A DNA stretch of 64,000 bases from a virus: positions 1-64,000 of the IMG/VR virus record IMGVR_UViG_3300025949_000023; one strand, 5' to 3'. The notes under the pieces are model-generated. The model was not told the DNA's origin and ran no database searches. It saw only the letters and a list, made by a program, of their open reading frames with translations. Position 1 is the first letter of the stretch. Every line of letters starts with the position of its first letter. Below, piece by piece: positions 8 through 43,943 of this stretch. The translations under genes were made by a program, and so were the position numbers.

Positions 8-604
8 CTACTGGTCTGCAGCATAACCGGATATTGTTTTACATTCCAGCAGGCCCTCCGCGCTGGTGTCGGTTTTGTTTATTATCCTGTCCGCACTCAC
101 AAATATCCAAGGGTATTTCTTGTTCTGCGCATAAGCGTTTAACCTGCGGCATTTGCGTACAATAGTGCCAGCAGTGTAGTTGGCAATCATTCCCTCCTGG
201 TTGCCATCCCAGTACTGCCATTTGTCGGCAATCTGCGCTTCATGCTCTCTGCCCCAAAACATAGCCGCGTTGTCAATATTCGGCTTCTCCCATGCACCAA
301 CTTTGGTGTAGTAAAGTTCTGTAGCGCTCAGGTAGTCATTTTGCATCAGCAGGGCAAACATTTCGCTACTGCCTACGCAGGGGAAATCGAAGTTTATCCA
401 GCCATTAGACTGAAAGAATTGTACAAGTATGTCGTATTTATACTTACTCGGTGTTAAGCTTAAATCATCCTGTAAGTCAAATCCAGTTCCATAAAGAGAA
501 TCAGCAATCTTCTTCTTCACATGAAACAGCGGCTTTCTCCATTCCAGCCATTCGTCACGGCTCATTTCCTTGGTGGACGTTAATATTAAGTTTTGCTGGT
601 TCAT
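8..604 (-). CDS. YqaJ-type phage exonuclease, interrupted by an in-frame TAG
   Basis: This looks like a YqaJ/lambda-exonuclease family (PD-(D/E)XK) nuclease, which resects double-stranded ends for phage recombination. Visible core: GSSEMFALL near residue 78, WGREHEAQIA near 118-126, an aspartate in SADRII near 172, and the catalytic E-x-K as LLECKT near 185-190. The frame stops at TAG (8-10) only eight residues after that lysine, where the family normally continues for roughly another hundred residues; a tryptophan is common near that position, so TGG to TAG is one explanation. The remaining seven bases keep the frame open to the window edge. The RecT-like partner lies at 1253..2065. Family call is confident; whether the protein is truncated, read through or mis-sequenced is open. 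Confidence 0.75.
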   Translation of the reverse strand: MNQQNLILTSTKEMSRDEWLEWRKPLFHVKKKIADSLYGTGFDLQDDLSLTPSKYKYDILVQFFQSNGWINFDFPCVGSSEMFALLMQNDYLSATELYYTKVGAWEKPNIDNAAMFWGREHEAQIADKWQYWDGNQEGMIANYTAGTIVRKCRRLNAYAQNKKYPWIFVSADRIINKTDTSAEGLLECKTISGYAADQ

Positions 605-607
605 GCT

Positions 608-988
608 TTAGTAATTTGAAAGAAGCCTTTTTATTTTATCGCTTTCGTTTTCTTGTTGCTGTTTTATTTGCTGCTGCCTTTCCAATTCAGCACATTCAAT
701 ATCCCATTGTAAACCTGCTGCCAATTTTTGAAAATCTTCTATCCACTTACCTTTGTGAAGCCATCCGTATGTTTCTGTCCACCCAGGTTGCCCACCAGTA
801 ATACCATATATTTCAACTGCGTCTTTGTTTGTACAAAGGTTATTTGAGCCGTTTGGTATGGCCTGTTCTCCATCTGGCAACAATTGAATATGAAATGTAT
901 TGCCCCTTGCGTGATGGCCTGATACAATGTAAAATCTTCCATATTGCCCTGTTTTAAATAAGTGGGCGTATTTCTCAGTGCCTTTCAT
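608..988 (-). CDS. Hypothetical protein in the recombination block
   Basis: A 126-residue protein I do not recognise. It starts with a mixed beta/alpha region (GRFYIVSGHHARGNTFHI) and ends in a charged glutamine-rich helix (residues about 97-126, rich in QQQ and KIKRLL). It sits three bases upstream of the exonuclease start and downstream of the RecT-like gene, so it is probably co-transcribed and may be an accessory recombination or single-strand binding factor; that role is inferred from position only. Confidence 0.6.
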   Translation of the reverse strand: MKGTEKYAHLFKTGQYGRFYIVSGHHARGNTFHIQLLPDGEQAIPNGSNNLCTNKDAVEIYGITGGQPGWTETYGWLHKGKWIEDFQKLAAGLQWDIECAELERQQQIKQQQENESDKIKRLLSNY

Positions 989-1024
989 TTTGAATGTGTT
1001 TAAAGTTTAACAGTGAAAGGCTTG

Positions 1025-1133
1025 GCGGGGGCAGGATTTTACCTGCTTGGAAGGGCAAAGGATATACTGGAACGCTACCCTCCATCCCCAGTACTTGTTT
1101 CACCTTGTGGATTTTTCCCCCGCTTCTGCCTCT
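1025..1133 (-). other. Candidate structured RNA / gene-free stretch
   Basis: No gene explains this stretch between the RecT-like and 126-aa genes. It has an outer 7-bp stem GCGGGGG (1025-1031) with CCCCCGC (1127-1133), an inner 6-bp stem TACTGG (1065-1070) with CCAGTA (1088-1093), and a short hairpin CAGG/CCTG (1032-1045). Read on the minus strand the last hairpin plus outer stem resembles a T-arm and acceptor stem, but the T loop is wrong and no anticodon arm can be drawn, so I do not call a tRNA. It could be a leader structure for the downstream minus-strand genes or a processing element. Confidence 0.35.
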
Positions 1134-29963: not shown

Positions 29964-31577
<1,614 letters not shown>

Positions 31578-31586
31578 TTATTGAAG

Positions 31587-32510
31587 CTATTTATCCGTAA
31601 CCAGCAAAATCTCCCTTTCAAACAGCACAAGGTATTCTTCGCCGTCCACCACTACTTTAGCGCCTGCATTTTTACCGAAATGCGCGGTATCGCCGACTTT
31701 TGCCTCCATTGGTATTAATTCGCCTGTGCCGGTAGCGCGTTCGCCTGGACCTACCGCAATCACCTTGCCCTGCAGTACTTTAATATCCGCATTGCCTGGC
31801 ACTACAAATCCGCCTGCTGATTGCGCAGGTGCTGTATCTGGTTTTACTAAAACCTTGTCTCTAAGTACTTTTTTCTTTGAACTCATATACATGCGTGTTA
31901 ATCCGAATAACGGATGGTTTGTTAATCTTCTGCCTGCTTTTATATATGTACCAACCACGTCCTCGTTTGTAACAACCACCTGCCTGCGCACTTCATTATT
32001 CCACTGGTAAACAACTTCGTAGTCTGCATATTTGTAAACTATAATCGTGTCGTTCCGGCAAATATCTTCAAAATCGCTGGCCACCACCTTCATTAAGTTG
32101 TCCTCGGTTTTCCGGCTGGCATCCGTTACGCCTTCAACCATTGGCACTTCTATTCGTTCGCAAATAAGATTTTTATTCAGCGGGCGCAGGTCGCCATCTT
32201 CGTCAACGAAAGAAAGAATCCACCTATCATAAGGCAAAACACTGGTACGTATGCCGTTTTCTGTTTTTACCAAAAACTCCTGGTCGAAGATAAGGTTGTG
32301 GTGTACTACTACGTATTTGCCTATTAAATGCTCAGGAACGCCAGTGCCTACCTGTTTAACCAATCCTACTACTGGCTGCGTCTCCCTGTTATTTGTGTCA
32401 TACAAGTGCCTGTTGGGCACAATATGAAACGTTACGCCATTTTCAAACGTATAAGATTGTTTTTGCTCAAGTGAGCTTTCAATAAGTATCGTGCCGCGTA
32501 GTGGTGTCAT
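31587..32510 (-). CDS. Three-domain GroES-like co-chaperonin
   Basis: A 307-residue protein, three times the length of GroES. The C-terminal domain (about 212-307) is a clear GroES: VLRDKVLVKP, the mobile-loop region AQSAGGFVVPGN, GKVIAVGPGER, VGDTAHFGKNAG and EREILLVTDK. Two upstream domains follow the same beta-barrel plan with weaker similarity: about 1-103 (TPLRGTILIE, VGLVKQVGTG, GKYVVVHHN) and about 110-205 (LNKNLICERIEVP, NDTIIVYKYADYEVV). Only the third has a canonical mobile loop for GroEL binding. Encoded 27 bp upstream of groEL in the same transcript, so it is the likely lid. Ends at TAG; in-frame TAA two codons later. Confidence 0.85.
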   Translation of the reverse strand: MTPLRGTILIESSLEQKQSYTFENGVTFHIVPNRHLYDTNNRETQPVVGLVKQVGTGVPEHLIGKYVVVHHNLIFDQEFLVKTENGIRTSVLPYDRWILSFVDEDGDLRPLNKNLICERIEVPMVEGVTDASRKTEDNLMKVVASDFEDICRNDTIIVYKYADYEVVYQWNNEVRRQVVVTNEDVVGTYIKAGRRLTNHPLFGLTRMYMSSKKKVLRDKVLVKPDTAPAQSAGGFVVPGNADIKVLQGKVIAVGPGERATGTGELIPMEAKVGDTAHFGKNAGAKVVVDGEEYLVLFEREILLVTDK

Positions 32511-32683: not shown

Positions 32684-33460
32684 TTAAAATTTATCAAACT
32701 CAGGATTTCGCTCGTCTACCCATTTCTGCATCACGGCTGGATGTTTGAAATCAATCGGCACCACATCTGCTGGTGTAAAACCGGCATTCCATGGGTCAAA
32801 CTTTTCAACCCCATCAACTCTTGTGTCATGTGGTATTTGGAATATTTCGTCTTGAATGTGTTTAATCTTAACGATATGCTTTGCCCTCGAACGAACAAAG
32901 CCATAATGCACGATTTTTATTTCATCCACAAAATGGTCTCTCGCGTCAGAAAGTTGGCTTTCACCATCCCCTATACTGGGATAAAAAGTGCGTGAAAGAC
33001 GAATGATATGGGTACCCACCGGGCTTCTGTTTTCAGGCACATTAAGACGGTGGTAACAGTCCCCCCACAGGTTCACCCGGGTAACATAAAACCCCTCCTC
33101 ATTTGTCTTTATAGCGCGTTTAATGGCATCGTAGCTGCTGGGCAAGCATATTTCATCAGATTGAAGGAGAAAGTACCAGTCATACCCATCTGCATTTGCC
33201 TTCCGTTGAAGTTGATTTTGAAAATATGATAACTTTTCACGGCCCTGCTGGGAATCCCATTCATCTTTTGTTATAAGATATAACTTAACCCTGTCATTAC
33301 TTTTAAATTCAAGGTGCAATATATCTGCCGTTCCATCTTCACCACCAGCGCCTACATAAACCATATCGCAAAATTCAAGAAGGCTGTTTACAGTCTCTAT
33401 GAAATTGTAGTCCTGCGAAATGCCACGATAGCAAAAAGTAACGCCTGCTAACTTTTTCAT
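32684..33460 (-). CDS. Glycosyltransferase, GT-A/family 2-like
   Basis: A 258-residue protein with a GT-A nucleotide-sugar binding start (KLAGVTFCYRGISQDYNF), a strand of the type CDMVYVGAGGEDGTADIL and the acidic metal site LLQSDE near residue 100. Likely transfers a sugar from a nucleotide donor. Start at 33460 forms an ATGA overlap with the methyltransferase gene; the longer frame from 33487 would overlap it further. Part of a modification operon just upstream of the chaperonins. Substrate (DNA, capsid or host glycan) cannot be told. Confidence 0.65.
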   Translation of the reverse strand: MKKLAGVTFCYRGISQDYNFIETVNSLLEFCDMVYVGAGGEDGTADILHLEFKSNDRVKLYLITKDEWDSQQGREKLSYFQNQLQRKANADGYDWYFLLQSDEICLPSSYDAIKRAIKTNEEGFYVTRVNLWGDCYHRLNVPENRSPVGTHIIRLSRTFYPSIGDGESQLSDARDHFVDEIKIVHYGFVRSRAKHIVKIKHIQDEIFQIPHDTRVDGVEKFDPWNAGFTPADVVPIDFKHPAVMQKWVDERNPEFDKF

Positions 33461-34050
33461 TCTATTACCTCCATTTCTTTTGCCCAAGGTTTTGTTTCAA
33501 GTTCTGCCTGCACGCGGTCAAATTCTTCCTGCAGGTTATAGCAGCGCATGCCAAACCAGGCCCCGATACCTAAAGTCGGGTGGTAAACAGGAAATACAAT
33601 ATGCATCCATTCGTCAGAAAGGTCTCGTGGTGTCCAAAGGCTATGATGCGCCTCCGGGTCAATATTATCTTCCGGCGCTTTCATCCACCAATCAAGTGGC
33701 GTAAAAATAATCTGCTTGTTGCTTCTTTTTTTCATCAGGTTAAGCAACCTGAAACCATCCATCTTTTTAAGATGTTCTATTCCGTCCAGGCAAAAAGAAA
33801 CGTCGTAATACTTACCTGTTTTTTGAAGATATTCCAGTACATCGGCCTGCACAAAATGCTCTTGCTCCTCTCCAATATCCCGTTTTAATATATCAACATA
33901 CCAACGGTGTTTAAATCCAAGCTTACGGGTATGGGGACAAAGATTGCTACACAAATCCACCATGTCAAATCTTTCTTTGCCAACCATTGCATTAAGGCAA
34001 TCTGTATAAACCTCGTCGTTGCCGTTTACTGTTGGGAATGTTATTGTCAT
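33457..34050 (-). CDS. SAM-dependent methyltransferase-like protein
   Basis: A 197-residue protein with features of class I methyltransferases: FDMVDLCSNLCPHTRKLG near residue 28 in the motif I position (DLCSNLCP rather than DxGxGxG), YDVSFCLDGIEHLKKMDGF near 83-100 as motif IV/post region, and KQIIFTPLDWW as strand 5. It overlaps both neighbours by ATGA and sits between two glycosyltransferase-type genes, suggesting sugar or small-molecule methylation. Motif I is degenerate, so activity is uncertain. Confidence 0.6.
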   Translation of the reverse strand: MTITFPTVNGNDEVYTDCLNAMVGKERFDMVDLCSNLCPHTRKLGFKHRWYVDILKRDIGEEQEHFVQADVLEYLQKTGKYYDVSFCLDGIEHLKKMDGFRLLNLMKKRSNKQIIFTPLDWWMKAPEDNIDPEAHHSLWTPRDLSDEWMHIVFPVYHPTLGIGAWFGMRCYNLQEEFDRVQAELETKPWAKEMEVIE

Positions 34051-34577
34051 AGTTCGCTAAATTCTTGTTTTGTAATTGTTTTCATACAACCAGGACCTCG
34101 GCCAACATCTTCGGTTGACTTTATGGGGTATATCTGCACACCTTGTGTGGTTTCAACATAAAAAACATCAATCCCTTTATATGTTTTATAACCTTGCTGG
34201 GTCGTTTGACTAACCTGTCTTTCAAATTCAATAGTTATGCTTTCTTTTTTCAAAGGACACCAATCAGGGGTAATTGGGTTGTAGTTTTTATCGCCTTCAA
34301 TTTTTGGCTCAAATACATAAACATTGCCAATAGTGCAGCCGTCCACTACCTGTACCCTGTCGTCAAACACACTCCCGCTGCCATTAAAATAACCGGCTCT
34401 ATATTTATTATATTCCTCCTGCGTCAATTCCGGTTTGATAAAATTATCTCTCCCCACAATCCCTACATATTGCTTTATATCAACCGGTCTGTCAGGGTGA
34501 TGGCAGTAAAGTTCATATTCATCACCCGTGCCATCATATAAAGGGCAATTAACGCAACCCGTTATTGTTTTTGTCAT
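34047..34577 (-). CDS. Cysteine-containing protein of the modification operon
   Basis: A 176-residue protein with possible metal ligands: GCVNCPLYDG and LYCHHPD near the N-terminus and TPDWCPLKKE near residue 110, a spread cysteine set seen in small phage zinc proteins. C-terminal half is beta-rich. It is locked between glycosyltransferase and methyltransferase genes by ATGA overlaps on both sides. No function assigned. Confidence 0.55.
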   Translation of the reverse strand: MTKTITGCVNCPLYDGTGDEYELYCHHPDRPVDIKQYVGIVGRDNFIKPELTQEEYNKYRAGYFNGSGSVFDDRVQVVDGCTIGNVYVFEPKIEGDKNYNPITPDWCPLKKESITIEFERQVSQTTQQGYKTYKGIDVFYVETTQGVQIYPIKSTEDVGRGPGCMKTITKQEFSEL

Positions 34578-35980
34578 AAAATACTTTTAATTACTTCTAC
34601 TATATCATAAGCCGTATGTTGAGTACAACGCGGTATTTCGTCGCCCATAAGGCACTGTACGCCGCGGGTTCCCACTTCGGAATGGTAGCAGCCCTGTTTT
34701 ACACAAAAGCCTTGTATGACGCTTAAATTATCAAAATCGCTGTACCTCAGTTCGGGTGTTACGCTCCCAAAAAAACCTATACACTTAACGCCTAAAGCTA
34801 TGGCCACCTGCAAAGGGAAACTGTCTGTACCTATAAAAATATCAGCCCCGCCAATCATGTAATTCAGCATTTCGTAGTTATGGGTGTTGATATGCGTTCC
34901 GAATTGTTTTCCTGCACCTTTTCCCACCTGCAACACCATATATCCCTTTCCGGTCAAAAACGCAAACACCTGCAGCCAGTCCCGTTGGCTCACTGCAATG
35001 TTTCGCCAGGGCATGTCCGTATCGTCAATATGTACCACCGCGTACTTGCCAAATAGTTTTGCATGCGGCGGGCAGTAGCTTGTTAGCTGGCTGTTTTTCA
35101 TTTCGCCATCTTCGATACCCGCTGCCTCGTAATAGGATTTTAAAACGGGTTGCTGCGGCTTGCTTTCGTAGGCCATATCCAAGCCTATAAACTTAACACC
35201 AGGTGCCGTAAGCAGCTCTATGCGCGTCTGCGTAATATGTTTCACGGGAAACCTATGGTGTTTAAATGGCTCCCAAAACTGTATAGGTGTATCAAGCACC
35301 GGCTGGTACCCGTCATTCCAAAGTCTTTCAAGCAGCGGCTCTGTCATTATCACATCACCGGCAGCAGCCTGCCGTGTTACTATTGCATGCGGCCTGTAAG
35401 GTTGGTGGTAGTATTGGTGAAATCCAAAAGTAGGATGCAGTGGCTCAATAAGCTCGTAAGAAAACTTCTGTGCGACTTCTACCGGAGCGAACTTATACCC
35501 CACTGTTTCAAGGTATTTACCATACAGCCGGCAAGTAATTTCATCTTCTGGATGCGTTATAGCGATATGCTGGTCAATCCTTAACCAATACATTAGCTCT
35601 TTGCTCCGCAGGCTGAAACCACCATTGCCTACTGAATTATTATCGTTGTATGGCCACGGGGCGCCAATATAATCATACTGTAAAAATTCATCACTCCATT
35701 GCTTTCCGTCAAGCACGTAGCCGTCATGCTGAATAATAAGCACATGCTCGGTAAACACCCACTTACAAAGTTCTTTTACAACAAAGCGTGAATAATCCTC
35801 TTTGCTTTTTAACGCATCAATCTTCCCTATATATACACCAGGAATTGGCAATTCAATATCTGTAAAAAAAATAGTCTTGGCAGGCTGTATTTGCTCCAAA
35901 GAGCGCCTTATTGCCTTCATAGCACCTGCATGGTGTTTAGTGTCTATACACACCATTGTTACTGTTGGGAGATTAATCAT
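34574..35980 (-). CDS. Two-domain glycosyltransferase (DUF5672 plus GT9-like)
   Basis: A 468-residue fusion. The N-terminal part (about 1-200) matches DUF5672-type glycosyltransferases: VLIIQHDGYVLDGKQW, YDYIGAPWPYND, GNGGFSLRSKELM. The C-terminal part (about 220-468) is like heptosyltransferases of family GT9, with IFIGTDSFPLQVAIALGVKC, FFGSVTPELR and a cysteine-rich end (GVQCLMGDEIPRCTQ). Start at 35980 (MINLPTVTMVCID) chosen over 36094, which would overlap the previous gene fully. Two transferase domains in one chain suggest sequential additions to one glycan. Target unknown. Confidence 0.7.
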   Translation of the reverse strand: MINLPTVTMVCIDTKHHAGAMKAIRRSLEQIQPAKTIFFTDIELPIPGVYIGKIDALKSKEDYSRFVVKELCKWVFTEHVLIIQHDGYVLDGKQWSDEFLQYDYIGAPWPYNDNNSVGNGGFSLRSKELMYWLRIDQHIAITHPEDEITCRLYGKYLETVGYKFAPVEVAQKFSYELIEPLHPTFGFHQYYHQPYRPHAIVTRQAAAGDVIMTEPLLERLWNDGYQPVLDTPIQFWEPFKHHRFPVKHITQTRIELLTAPGVKFIGLDMAYESKPQQPVLKSYYEAAGIEDGEMKNSQLTSYCPPHAKLFGKYAVVHIDDTDMPWRNIAVSQRDWLQVFAFLTGKGYMVLQVGKGAGKQFGTHINTHNYEMLNYMIGGADIFIGTDSFPLQVAIALGVKCIGFFGSVTPELRYSDFDNLSVIQGFCVKQGCYHSEVGTRGVQCLMGDEIPRCTQHTAYDIVEVIKSIL

Positions 35981-36188
35981 TGGATTCCTCCAGTATTGTT
36001 GAAGGTTCTTTATCCATGCTTTTAGCGATAGCCTCAACCGCTTTCCAGGTAGTAAGAGAAACAGATGAACGCATGATGGCAGACTTAACGCCACCTTCTC
36101 CTACGCCCATAAATGGTGCTATCTGTTTCTGCAAATCAGGATTTTTATGCAGATAGTTTAAAGCCTCAATTGTTAAATGTGTTGCCAT
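35973..36188 (-). CDS. Small helical protein
   Basis: A 71-residue all-helical protein (LTIEALNYLHKNPDLQKQIA, SLTTWKAVEAIAKSMDKEPS). No family recognised; the second half looks vaguely like an HTH but lacks a clear turn. First gene of the modification/chaperonin operon and overlaps the glycosyltransferase start by 8 bp. Confidence 0.5.
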   Translation of the reverse strand: MATHLTIEALNYLHKNPDLQKQIAPFMGVGEGGVKSAIMRSSVSLTTWKAVEAIAKSMDKEPSTILEESND

Positions 36189-40874: not shown

Positions 40875-41723
40875 ATGAACTTACCAAAATTAATTATATC
40901 ATTTAGTGGCGGTGAAACATCCGCATTTATGACCCAGTGGCTTTTAAAAAACAAATCAAATGAGTATGATTTTACAGTTGTCTTTGCTAACACTGGTTGC
41001 GAAAATGAGGAAACTTTAGAGTTTGTAAATGAATGTGATAAATATTTCGGGTTGAATGTTGTTTGGGTTGAAGCTATTACTACCCCTATAAAAGGCATAG
41101 GTGTAGTTTCAAAAATTGTTTCTTTTGAAACAGCAAGTAGGGATGGAGAACCATTTGAGTTAATGATACAAAAATTAGGAATACCAAATCGGACTGCTCC
41201 GCGTTGTAGTGAAGAATTAAAAAAATTCCCTATTAGGCATTATGCTCGAACGGTTGGATTGAAAAAATACTACACTGCTATTGGTATAAGAATAGACGAG
41301 GTTGACAGAGTAAGCGAAAACTATAAATCTGAAAAAATTATATACCCGTTGATTAGCATGGTTCCAATAAATAAAGATGGTATTAATTCTTTTTGGAGCA
41401 GTATGCCTTTTAGGCTTAGATTAAAACCATATCAAGGAAATTGTAAATGGTGTTGGAAAAAATCTTTTAAAAAACTAATAACCATAGCTAAAGAAACTCC
41501 ATCTGCCTTTGACTTCCCTGTTAGAATGGAAGAAACTTATGGGAATATCATTCCAACGCAGCGAAAAGATAGTAAAAACATTAAGTTGCCTCTTACTTTT
41601 TTTAGAGGCAACCTTAGTGCGAAAGATATTCTTTCAATGGCAAATAGACCGGAACTACAGGGAGTTCTTGATTTTAACCAAGAAACCCCAAATGGGTGTT
41701 CGGAAAGCTGTGAGGCTTTTTAA
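40875..41723 (+). CDS. PP-loop ATPase of the PAPS reductase/DndC-like family
   Basis: A 282-residue protein with the PP-loop at the start (IISFSGGETSAFMTQWLL), followed by VVFANTGCENEETLEFV, the family pattern after the first strand. A C-x-x-C pair (GNCKWCWKKS) and NGCSESCEAF at the C-terminus suggest a metal site. Such enzymes adenylate a substrate for sulfur or nucleotide-base chemistry; in phages they occur with DNA or RNA modification. Its start follows the previous stop directly. Substrate unknown. Confidence 0.75.
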   Translation: MNLPKLIISFSGGETSAFMTQWLLKNKSNEYDFTVVFANTGCENEETLEFVNECDKYFGLNVVWVEAITTPIKGIGVVSKIVSFETASRDGEPFELMIQKLGIPNRTAPRCSEELKKFPIRHYARTVGLKKYYTAIGIRIDEVDRVSENYKSEKIIYPLISMVPINKDGINSFWSSMPFRLRLKPYQGNCKWCWKKSFKKLITIAKETPSAFDFPVRMEETYGNIIPTQRKDSKNIKLPLTFFRGNLSAKDILSMANRPELQGVLDFNQETPNGCSESCEAF

Positions 41724-41729
41724 TTTATT

Positions 41730-43943
41730 TTATGCCTGCCGCTGTATGTAATCATAATCTTCCACCCGCCGTGCCCTGCCGGTAGCCTTGTTAATCGTGT
41801 ATTCCTCCACCACCTGCATGCGCTTTACTTCTTTCTTTTTGTGTTTGAACTCGCCCATATAGTTTAACAGCCACATCATAAATCCTATACTCACGTCACT
41901 TTTTGTACGGTCGGCGGGGTCAAACGTCTCTAAATCTTCCAGTATCTGTAAGAACTTAATCTTCCACCAGTGCTTCTGGATGTAGATAGCCGCCAATTCA
42001 ATCTGCCTGGCAAATACAAACGGGTCGGACGAGCTGGCGCCATACTCCACGGCCTTGTCGCTTTCCCGCAGTTTACGCATAGCATCAATCGCCGCATCCG
42101 GCTTTTTACCCAACATTGGTAAACAGTTCACATCCATGAAATTGGGCATGGTATTATTGAAGTACTTGATATACTCCTGCGTAGCATCCCTTTCCACGGT
42201 TACCGTGCAGCCATACCACATACTGGCCATTAAAATCTCTTTCCAAAACAATTCCGTTAACCTAGGCCTTCCTATGTACAACGCCACTGGGTCGCCGCCT
42301 TCTTCATGCGCCTCCATGCTGGGGTCAAGTTTGCTGCCTATTACAATTACACCTTTTGAGCCTAATTCCTTCGTTTTATCAAACCTAAAGGTATCAGCAC
42401 CCCCTGCATAGATAGCCGTTCCCATTGGCCACGGCCTGCCTCTTTCATCTATCCGGTAGTTATTCGGTGTTTTGGGAAAGTCTTTTATCAGCCAGTTACC
42501 GTTTATATCGTCGCAGAACTCAATTACAACCTGTTTCTTGCCTTCATTATTGAAGTGTGATACCATAAGCCTCCCACGCCTTAAATACAGCTCTTTATCC
42601 CGCAGCATGCGTTTTACAACTTCAATCTGAGACTTTATATTTTCAAGGTTAAAGGGGCTCATGCTGTCGCCAAAGTCAAACATATCCTGTTCCCTTACAG
42701 GGTACTTGCGCCTTTCCTCTGCCTTATCATCTTCGTCTGTTAGCAGGGCCAATTTATGTTCAAGGTATTTTTTAGCTCCCAGCCTAAGGTATTCGTCCGG
42801 TACCCGTTCTTCATGGTTGGTTACTTCCTGGTTTTTCTGTATCAGGTAGGCCAGTGTTTCTTCGTCCGGTGGGTCAATTACACTCTCACCGTACTTGCCT
42901 ATAAAACCAAACAGCCCGTCATACGCCGGCTTGAAAAACTTAACCGCCTGTTGAGGTAGCCTGTTTAGCGGGTATTCGTATTGATTGGCGGCATCCCATA
43001 TCCTTTTAAATGCGTTACCACCCTTAGTGGGTGGGTTTACCGTTGACGGTATATAAGCAAACCCTTTCCTTACCGCACCTACTACCAGGGTGTCTTTTAC
43101 GATACGCCAGTACTTTGCAAACGATACTTTTAACCATTTACCTGCTTCATCTATGAGTATAAAGCTCCATCTGCCGGAGTCAAATGCGTTTAGCGTGGTG
43201 TCCCTTTTTACTATAATAGAGTTAAGGCCTTCACGGGCGGTGTTCACCTGGCCCTGTGATTGTTTTTTCTTTCCTTCTTTACGCAGGCTGATTTCATTCT
43301 TAGGGTCGGTACCACCTGCAGTACGTGGCCGCAGGTAGATAGGCAGTGATTTAAACGCATACACCAGCATGTTCTCAAACATATCGTCCACGTCGTCACC
43401 GGTCTTTGATATGTTACCGCAGCGTTTATTACCGCCCCAGCCAGCGGCATTGGTGGCTATCCACATCTCTATACACGTACCATGGCTGGTAGCTCCTTCA
43501 CGTCGCGCCTTGCCCCTGATGATAGCCGCTATATACGGGTTACTATAACACGAAATAAAGAAGATAAAGAAAAGCCTGTCACATTCCCTATACTCAGGTT
43601 TGCTGCCATCCTCCAGCGTCCAGTAGGTTAACCAGTAGTAGTAAACTCCGGGGATATACGTTGGAACGCCTTTAATCATCACCCAAACCCCATGCTGGCA
43701 CTTATGCAGCTCCTCCAGTACAAATTTCTTTTGCTCAGGCGTGTATACAGGGTCACCGTCAAAGTCAAACCTAATGTTGTCCATGAAGTCGGGTATCTCC
43801 TGCCTGCGGTAGTATTGTTCTTTTACTGGCCGCTTATTGCCTTCAATCTTTGTTATCGCTGGTTGGTCGGGAATGGAGCAGGGGATGCCCTGTATTATTT
43901 GTTCGGTAGGCATGTTCAATATTTTTATTTGTTCATGTAACAT
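41730..43943 (-). CDS. terL: Terminase large subunit (TerL)
   Basis: A 737-residue packaging motor and nuclease. N-terminal ATPase: Walker A-like RGKARREGATSHG near residues 143-155 and Walker B FILIDEAGKW near 261-270. Nuclease-domain signatures: AIYAGGADTFRFDKTKE (first acidic site), VTVERDATQEYIKYF and the C-terminal TKSDVSIGFMMWLL. It drives DNA into the prohead and cuts it. Size and sequence style resemble crAss-like TerL proteins, which are unusually long. An alternative start at 43913 (MPTEQIIQG) is possible. Confidence 0.9.
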   Translation of the reverse strand: MLHEQIKILNMPTEQIIQGIPCSIPDQPAITKIEGNKRPVKEQYYRRQEIPDFMDNIRFDFDGDPVYTPEQKKFVLEELHKCQHGVWVMIKGVPTYIPGVYYYWLTYWTLEDGSKPEYRECDRLFFIFFISCYSNPYIAAIIRGKARREGATSHGTCIEMWIATNAAGWGGNKRCGNISKTGDDVDDMFENMLVYAFKSLPIYLRPRTAGGTDPKNEISLRKEGKKKQSQGQVNTAREGLNSIIVKRDTTLNAFDSGRWSFILIDEAGKWLKVSFAKYWRIVKDTLVVGAVRKGFAYIPSTVNPPTKGGNAFKRIWDAANQYEYPLNRLPQQAVKFFKPAYDGLFGFIGKYGESVIDPPDEETLAYLIQKNQEVTNHEERVPDEYLRLGAKKYLEHKLALLTDEDDKAEERRKYPVREQDMFDFGDSMSPFNLENIKSQIEVVKRMLRDKELYLRRGRLMVSHFNNEGKKQVVIEFCDDINGNWLIKDFPKTPNNYRIDERGRPWPMGTAIYAGGADTFRFDKTKELGSKGVIVIGSKLDPSMEAHEEGGDPVALYIGRPRLTELFWKEILMASMWYGCTVTVERDATQEYIKYFNNTMPNFMDVNCLPMLGKKPDAAIDAMRKLRESDKAVEYGASSSDPFVFARQIELAAIYIQKHWWKIKFLQILEDLETFDPADRTKSDVSIGFMMWLLNYMGEFKHKKKEVKRMQVVEEYTINKATGRARRVEDYDYIQRQA

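Follow-up and report, generated by a model that had tools for sequence, protein, structure and literature searches.

Known co-chaperonins have one barrel, as in GroES and the phage T4 protein gp31, or two, as in Cpn20 of chloroplasts and apicoplasts, a plastid protein in which GroES barrels follow one another head to tail in one chain and each carry a mobile loop; and we found no report of a tandem or triple phage GroES in the open-access literature. We describe here a viral gene whose 307-residue product (P0001) compares with these systems as follows: i) like Cpn20, it has GroES-like barrels arranged head to tail in a single chain, but three instead of two, the first two being predicted, and the second has no recognizable loop; ii) like GroES/Cpn10 (PF00166), it has a complete domain with mobile loop (domain 3) and is encoded beside GroEL, but it carries two additional N-terminal barrels; and iii) like T4 gp31, it is a phage co-chaperonin with the GroES fold, but gp31 is single-domain and uses the GroEL of its host, whereas this phage encodes its own GroEL. 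The source virus record is 72,043 bp long and contains the gene once; its first 64,000 nucleotides are what we call the window.

The open reading frame reported in the initial annotation is real and intact and encodes 307 residues; the strand, which had not been given, is minus. Its start lies in an A-rich context like those of the other genes of the window (A at positions -11 and -12, and G absent or depleted at -6, for window positions 31560-64000) and falls at the 83rd percentile of real starts. A-rich leaders of this kind are also seen in Bacteroidota, and are compatible with a Bacteroidota host. Neither of the neighboring frames at 32684-33487 and 33457-34050 is matched in Pfam or PHROG; shortly upstream of the co-chaperonin, a gene on the minus strand (34574-36094) encodes 506 residues that include a DUF5672 domain (E=2.6e-18). 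Features of the locus are collected in Table 1.

Table 1. Features of the co-chaperonin locus and of the terminase gene, in window coordinates.
Feature	Position	Strand	Basis or remark
Co-chaperonin ORF (P0001), 307 aa, three GroES-like barrels	31587..32510	(-)	Intact from ATG at 32510 down to 31587; stop codon included
Domain 1, residues 1-104, GroES-like barrel (predicted)	32199..32510	(-)	Register homology to barrel 1 of the two-barrel family; Cpn20 fold match
Domain 1 candidate mobile loop, residues 21-31 (TFENGVTFHIV)	32418..32450	(-)	Family counterpart TKEIGGIEFIV
VVVHHN motif, residues 67-72	32295..32312	(-)	Common with the two-barrel family (GDTLLVHHN)
Domain 2, residues 105-192, GroES-like barrel (predicted), no recognizable GroEL-binding loop	31935..32198	(-)	Predicted model
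Linker, residues 193-211	31878..31934	(-)	Low model confidence
Domain 3, residues 212-307, canonical GroES/Cpn10	31590..31877	(-)	Pfam, hhalign, identity
Domain 3 mobile loop, residues 226-238 (TAPAQSAGGFVVP)	31797..31835	(-)	Alignment with bacterial-type GroES
GroEL, 531 aa, presumed partner	29964..31559	(-)	Pfam Cpn60 E=7e-53; phrog_5725 E=3e-130
Large terminase	41730..43943	(-)	phrog_6681 E=3.5e-64; upstream neighbor not a two-barrel co-chaperonin

Domain 3 is the clear GroES, complete with mobile loop, that it had been taken for. It matches Pfam Cpn10 (PF00166) over residues 214-304 with E=1.3e-20 (73.7 bits, the curated cut-off being 21.1), bacterial Cpn10 in hhalign at 99.8% (E=1e-28), and solved GroES/Cpn10 chains in the PDB with E-values down to 8e-16, and is 36-40% identical to five bacterial-type GroES proteins. 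The mobile loop contains QSAGGFVVP, in which FVV occupies the position of the GroEL-contact tripeptide; the hydrophobic contact motif that follows the glycine is present (SAGGFVV).

Residues 1-209, on the other hand, contain no Pfam family, the Cpn10 cut-off is reached in neither domain 1 nor domain 2, and a tblastn search of phages with this segment returned nothing credible. We folded residues 1-209 alone, because a mixed alignment of the full chain had put barrel 2 of the two-barrel phage family described below onto domain 3; 36 members of that family were included in the alignment, and the resulting AlphaFold2 model has a pLDDT of 68 and a pTM of 0.60, with domain 2 mostly at pLDDT 64-88. 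The best solved match of the model is the tandem Cpn20 chain 7ekq_R (E=2.2e-4; TM 0.54/0.58), which covers both barrels (Z 10.4 over 161 residues, span 1-190); single GroES chains follow, on domain 2 (Z ~7, ~80 residues), and in a viral structure library two-barrel phage proteins rank first, among them the 200-residue 'Chaperonin cpn10' of phi18:3. In the model, domains 1 and 2 take the Cpn10 fold, as expected from the initial annotation, which had given them the same barrel plan with weaker similarity; for domain 2 the fold is only partly independent as evidence, because the alignment presupposes family homology. The proposed domain borders at 103/104 and 211/212 agree with the model, in which domain 2 aligns to GroES over residues 107-190, and the comparison with Cpn10 folds that had been suggested as a check finds domains 1 and 2 jointly closest to Cpn20 and domain 3 a canonical GroES. 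We thus confirm the observation of a three-barrel GroES-like chain, and its three-domain interpretation is supported. The top viral structural match of domains 1 and 2 is BFVD entry A0A516L046, a viral protein of 304 residues and possibly another three-barrel co-chaperonin.

Our first lead to the two-barrel family was phrog_13932 (PHROG 13932), a 200-residue 'co-chaperonin GroES' family with a weak match to domain 3. Members are ~180-200 residues long, with ~187 residues in related podoviruses such as phi38:1, elemo, and Panino; in these phages, in phi18:3, and in others the gene immediately precedes terminase and is distinct from any GroES gene beside GroEL; named examples are phi38:1 gp089, phi18:3 gp096, and elemo gp30, and the groups represented are Pervagoviridae, Pachyviridae, Elemovirus, and Panino-like phages. 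In IMG/VR, a scan with four members gave at least 574 relatives within the first 600 stretches that matched, and more diverse genomes were added through a portal scan. Terminase lies directly downstream of 135 of the 137 two-barrel genes in the fetched loci, and the remaining two are cut by a contig edge; roughly half of the loci came in via the adjoining portal gene and are not independent of synteny, the others having been found by the protein alone. No family member was found in 395 Bacteroidota genomes at E<=1e-7. The proteins are already deposited as 'co-chaperonin GroES', without remark on their architecture. Tandem forms are not limited to Cpn20, the one named in the initial annotation: many related phages encode a two-barrel GroES-like protein at terminase.

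Both family barrels can be related to Cpn10. Barrel 2 matches bacterial Cpn10 at 96.5% (E=9e-10), or 97.3% with a wider profile (E=2.6e-11), and lies above the Pfam Cpn10 cut-off in the proteins of phi38:1 and phi18:3-type phages; barrel 1 aligns to Cpn10 in hhalign at 40-42% (E=3e-4), the register being kept from strand 1, across the mobile loop, as far as the GD turn. The loop of family barrel 1 has the sequence TKEIGGIEFIVST, near the GroES loop pattern TKTAGGILLPGSA. With this family P0001 shares the two-barrel plan, the VHHN motif, and the position of the barrel 1 loop, and the window shares with it the kind of phage, as judged by terminase, portal, and tail/ring proteins; unlike the family, P0001 has an extra C-terminal GroES, adjoins GroEL and not terminase, and is only ~15-26% identical. 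In hhalign, residues 1-209 align collinearly to the family over 17-167 or 17-169 (6.4%, E=0.006). Of 300 shuffles, 3 equal this result; for domain 1 taken alone a single one does, and for domain 2 taken alone, which is not distinctive, 43 do. Against barrel 1 of the family HMM the score of the full segment is reached by 4 of 4224 shuffles and that of domain 1 alone by 1 of 4224, and for domain 2 alone the score against family barrel 2 is reached by 93 of 3825 shuffles, that against Cpn10 by 30 of 3575. Residues 16-74 of domain 1 align collinearly to residues 16-70 of the family, NGVTF stands at the position of the family GGIEF, and residues 21-31 are a plausible candidate for a GroEL-binding mobile loop; no such loop could be recognized in domain 2 in the family alignment. 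The sequence homology of barrels 1 and 2 to the family is weak; of the three barrels, barrel 2 has the least sequence support and is assigned mainly from its predicted fold.

Two longer terminase-linked relatives resemble P0001 in joining a two-barrel part to a further C-terminal domain in one chain: P0002 of the virus G001 (266 aa, L016:1048-1845, minus strand) and a protein of L109 (260 aa, 348-1127, plus strand). Unlike domain 3 of P0001, however, their C-terminal domain of ~80 residues has no Cpn10 match and is modelled with low confidence, and the 70.8-kb record of G001, whose ring protein is 29% identical to that of the window, contains neither a GroEL nor a Cpn10 match. The L109 protein has better two-barrel family support than P0001. 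In its model, T4 gp31 (Z 7.5) and M. tuberculosis Cpn10 (Z 7.4) are structural matches of barrel 1 and GroES (Z 7.7) is one of barrel 2; taken barrel by barrel, this agrees with the result for P0001.

The presumed partner GroEL starts 27 nt downstream of the co-chaperonin stop, on the same strand. ATPase residues D52, D87, and D398 are kept, G88Q and T91S are changed, and the apical positions are mostly hydrophobic (L234F, L237V, V263A, V264A); because the ATPase residues and mostly hydrophobic apical positions are retained, a GroES-type interaction is plausible. A GroEL tree puts the window on a long branch (90/89) and does not place it firmly. We also observed that this GroEL lacks the inter-ring contacts of the E. 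coli type (R452N, E461K, S463D, V464Y) and the GGM tail, the G88Q change lying in the GDGTTT motif; from these residues it is possibly a single-ring chaperonin, such positions varying in other chaperonins too. An eight-residue insertion, DPTPGKKT (~residues 233-240; 30840-30863, minus strand), lies right before the GroES-contacting apical helix, and is absent from the aligned Salmonella, phi38:1, and MW202828 sequences.

In every one of the 12 full-length relatives with a complete GroEL (phi38:1, Calle_1, elemo, Panino, MW202828, and seven IMG/VR genomes) there is also a separate single-domain GroES, and the two-barrel gene is elsewhere, at terminase. GroES and the two-barrel protein occur together without GroEL in four Baltivirus/Bacelvirus phages. 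In the Pachyviridae NC_021794, NC_021803, NC_021789, and KC821622, where this is the gene content, host GroEL is presumably the partner of both co-chaperonins. In the window phage neither the two-barrel protein nor GroES exists as a separate gene: the 307-residue frame is the sole match when the record is searched with phrog_13932, and a further search, which had no positive control in that record, likewise found no second, separate two-barrel gene; and the P0001 gene is not directly upstream of the large terminase, as against 135/137 two-barrel genes. The phage is nevertheless of the same kind, in that its terminase, portal, and tail/ring proteins match virion PHROGs 6681, 6547, 13977, 14543, and 14478, and the nearest named relatives of its portal are Flavobacterium (elemo), Maribacter (Panino), and Cellulophaga phages and one spring metagenome podovirus, at ~22-23% identity. 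Since the relatives keep two genes apart and the window has a single gene, fusion at the GroEL locus is the simplest account; what had been described as three GroES-like domains per chain stands, with an origin better read as gene fusion than as simple triplication.

The putative fusion is known from a single metagenomic record. Single-sequence searches of viral contigs with P0001, GroEL, capsid, and terminase found no relatives, nor did a viral scan with an alignment containing P0001. Two small ORFs beside GroEL in phi38:1, gp006 and gp008, were considered as counterparts of domains 1 and 2, and are unlike GroES. Upstream of the terminase region of the window lies a gene for a protein with a PAPS-reductase domain (Pfam E=4e-7; 40875-41723, plus strand). 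Some GroES/GroEL records in phage collections (AFYI01000007.1, AGRM01000005.1, and similar) are 500-kb Salmonella contigs or probably bacterial fragments, and inflate counts of phage chaperonins.

We think it probable that P0001 is a co-chaperonin for the encoded GroEL which was made by fusing a two-barrel protein with a single-domain GroES; the comparisons above show the intact frame, the three-barrel architecture (from sequence for domain 3, from fold and weak sequence for domains 1 and 2), the operon with GroEL, the loss of separate copies, and their separate genes in relatives, and from these we infer the fusion route, the function as a lid, the binding loops, the stoichiometry, and the identity of the clients. 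A two-barrel gene of the sort usually found upstream of terminase would have been joined, at the GroEL locus, to a GroES of the sort usually found beside GroEL, and the fused product would cap the phage's own GroEL. Barrel 3 would dock on the GroEL apical domains via its canonical mobile loop; barrel 1, with its GroES-type loop, would most likely dock too; and barrel 2, with no recognizable loop, would take the part of a spacer or of a piece of the wall. With two chains there would be six barrels and four candidate loops; six barrels leave the seven-fold ring unfilled, but by analogy with concatamers such a lid would still work, whether or not host GroES contributed a seventh. The initial annotation had reasoned that three domains per chain cannot tile a seven-fold ring evenly and that the lid may be six- or nine-fold; such symmetry is not forced, because in vitro seven-fold GroEL functions with GroES/Cpn20 concatamers that have six to eight domains, leaving a subunit free or a domain unused (PMC5780408), and because 7ekq combines one- and two-domain subunits (2x2 + 1x2 + 1x1) to a total of seven. 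Clients are likely to be head or packaging proteins, because the two-barrel genes are syntenic with terminase and portal. A bolder reading, which we consider somewhat less likely than not, is an asymmetric lid of two three-barrel chains, with six barrels in all or a seventh supplied by host GroES, in which only some barrels are docked and the terminase-linked barrels are tuned for head and packaging clients.

We wish to stress that other readings of the same chain can be envisaged. Conservation is much the strongest in domain 3, which alone has a full GroES sequence, and domain 2 lacks a GroEL-binding loop; it may be, although we consider it rather unlikely, that domain 3 alone engages GroEL, so that seven chains would form an ordinary heptamer and the N-terminal barrels would be arms on the outside which recruit or protect a particular client, for example a protein of the head or of packaging. 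Such arms would suit the genomic position of the two-barrel protein in relatives, with terminase and portal and not with GroEL, as well as the three-barrel-length protein encoded at terminase in G001, in whose record no GroEL or GroES gene was found. An arm would have no need, however, of the GroES-like loop which barrel 1 of the family retains (TKxIGGIEFIV), and the presence of the two-barrel protein together with GroES in Baltivirus phages and others is equally compatible with a shared lid.

The lack of a Pfam hit in residues 1-209, and the weak sequence link to the two-barrel family, could also mean that domains 1 and 2 are some other beta-rich module, for example the GroES-like fold of the alcohol dehydrogenase type or a virion protein, and N-terminal domains of alcohol dehydrogenases and quinone reductases, which have a GroES-like fold, do appear lower in the structure list, with Z up to 5. 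This seems improbable to us: the top structure matches are co-chaperonins and score well above the dehydrogenase types (Z 10.4 and ~7), the tandem arrangement matches as well, barrel 2 of the family passes Pfam Cpn10 in several phages, and the two-barrel gene of phi18:3 is annotated by sequence similarity, the MS/MS notes being on the adjacent virion proteins. We give still less credence to a scheme with two products, in which internal initiation at M207 or M209, 3-5 residues ahead of domain 3, would yield a free GroES of normal length (99-101 residues), and 3+3+1 barrels would close at seven. The upstream contexts of these two methionines, which score as internal ATGs do (60th and 74th percentile of internal ATGs, and only the 6th and 10th of real starts), do not support an internal start for free domain 3, and a full-length product of 307 residues is expected because they are unlike starts.

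If P0001 does act as a lid for its own GroEL, the three-barrel form would be a natural version of the engineered concatamers that have been used to probe seven-fold GroEL with lids of other than seven domains. The apparent fusion with GroES in the window, by the usual gene-fusion argument, suggests that the little-studied two-barrel protein encoded upstream of terminase in hundreds of aquatic phages works with GroES/GroEL, and a role in head assembly or packaging becomes a hypothesis that can be tested for the whole two-barrel family.
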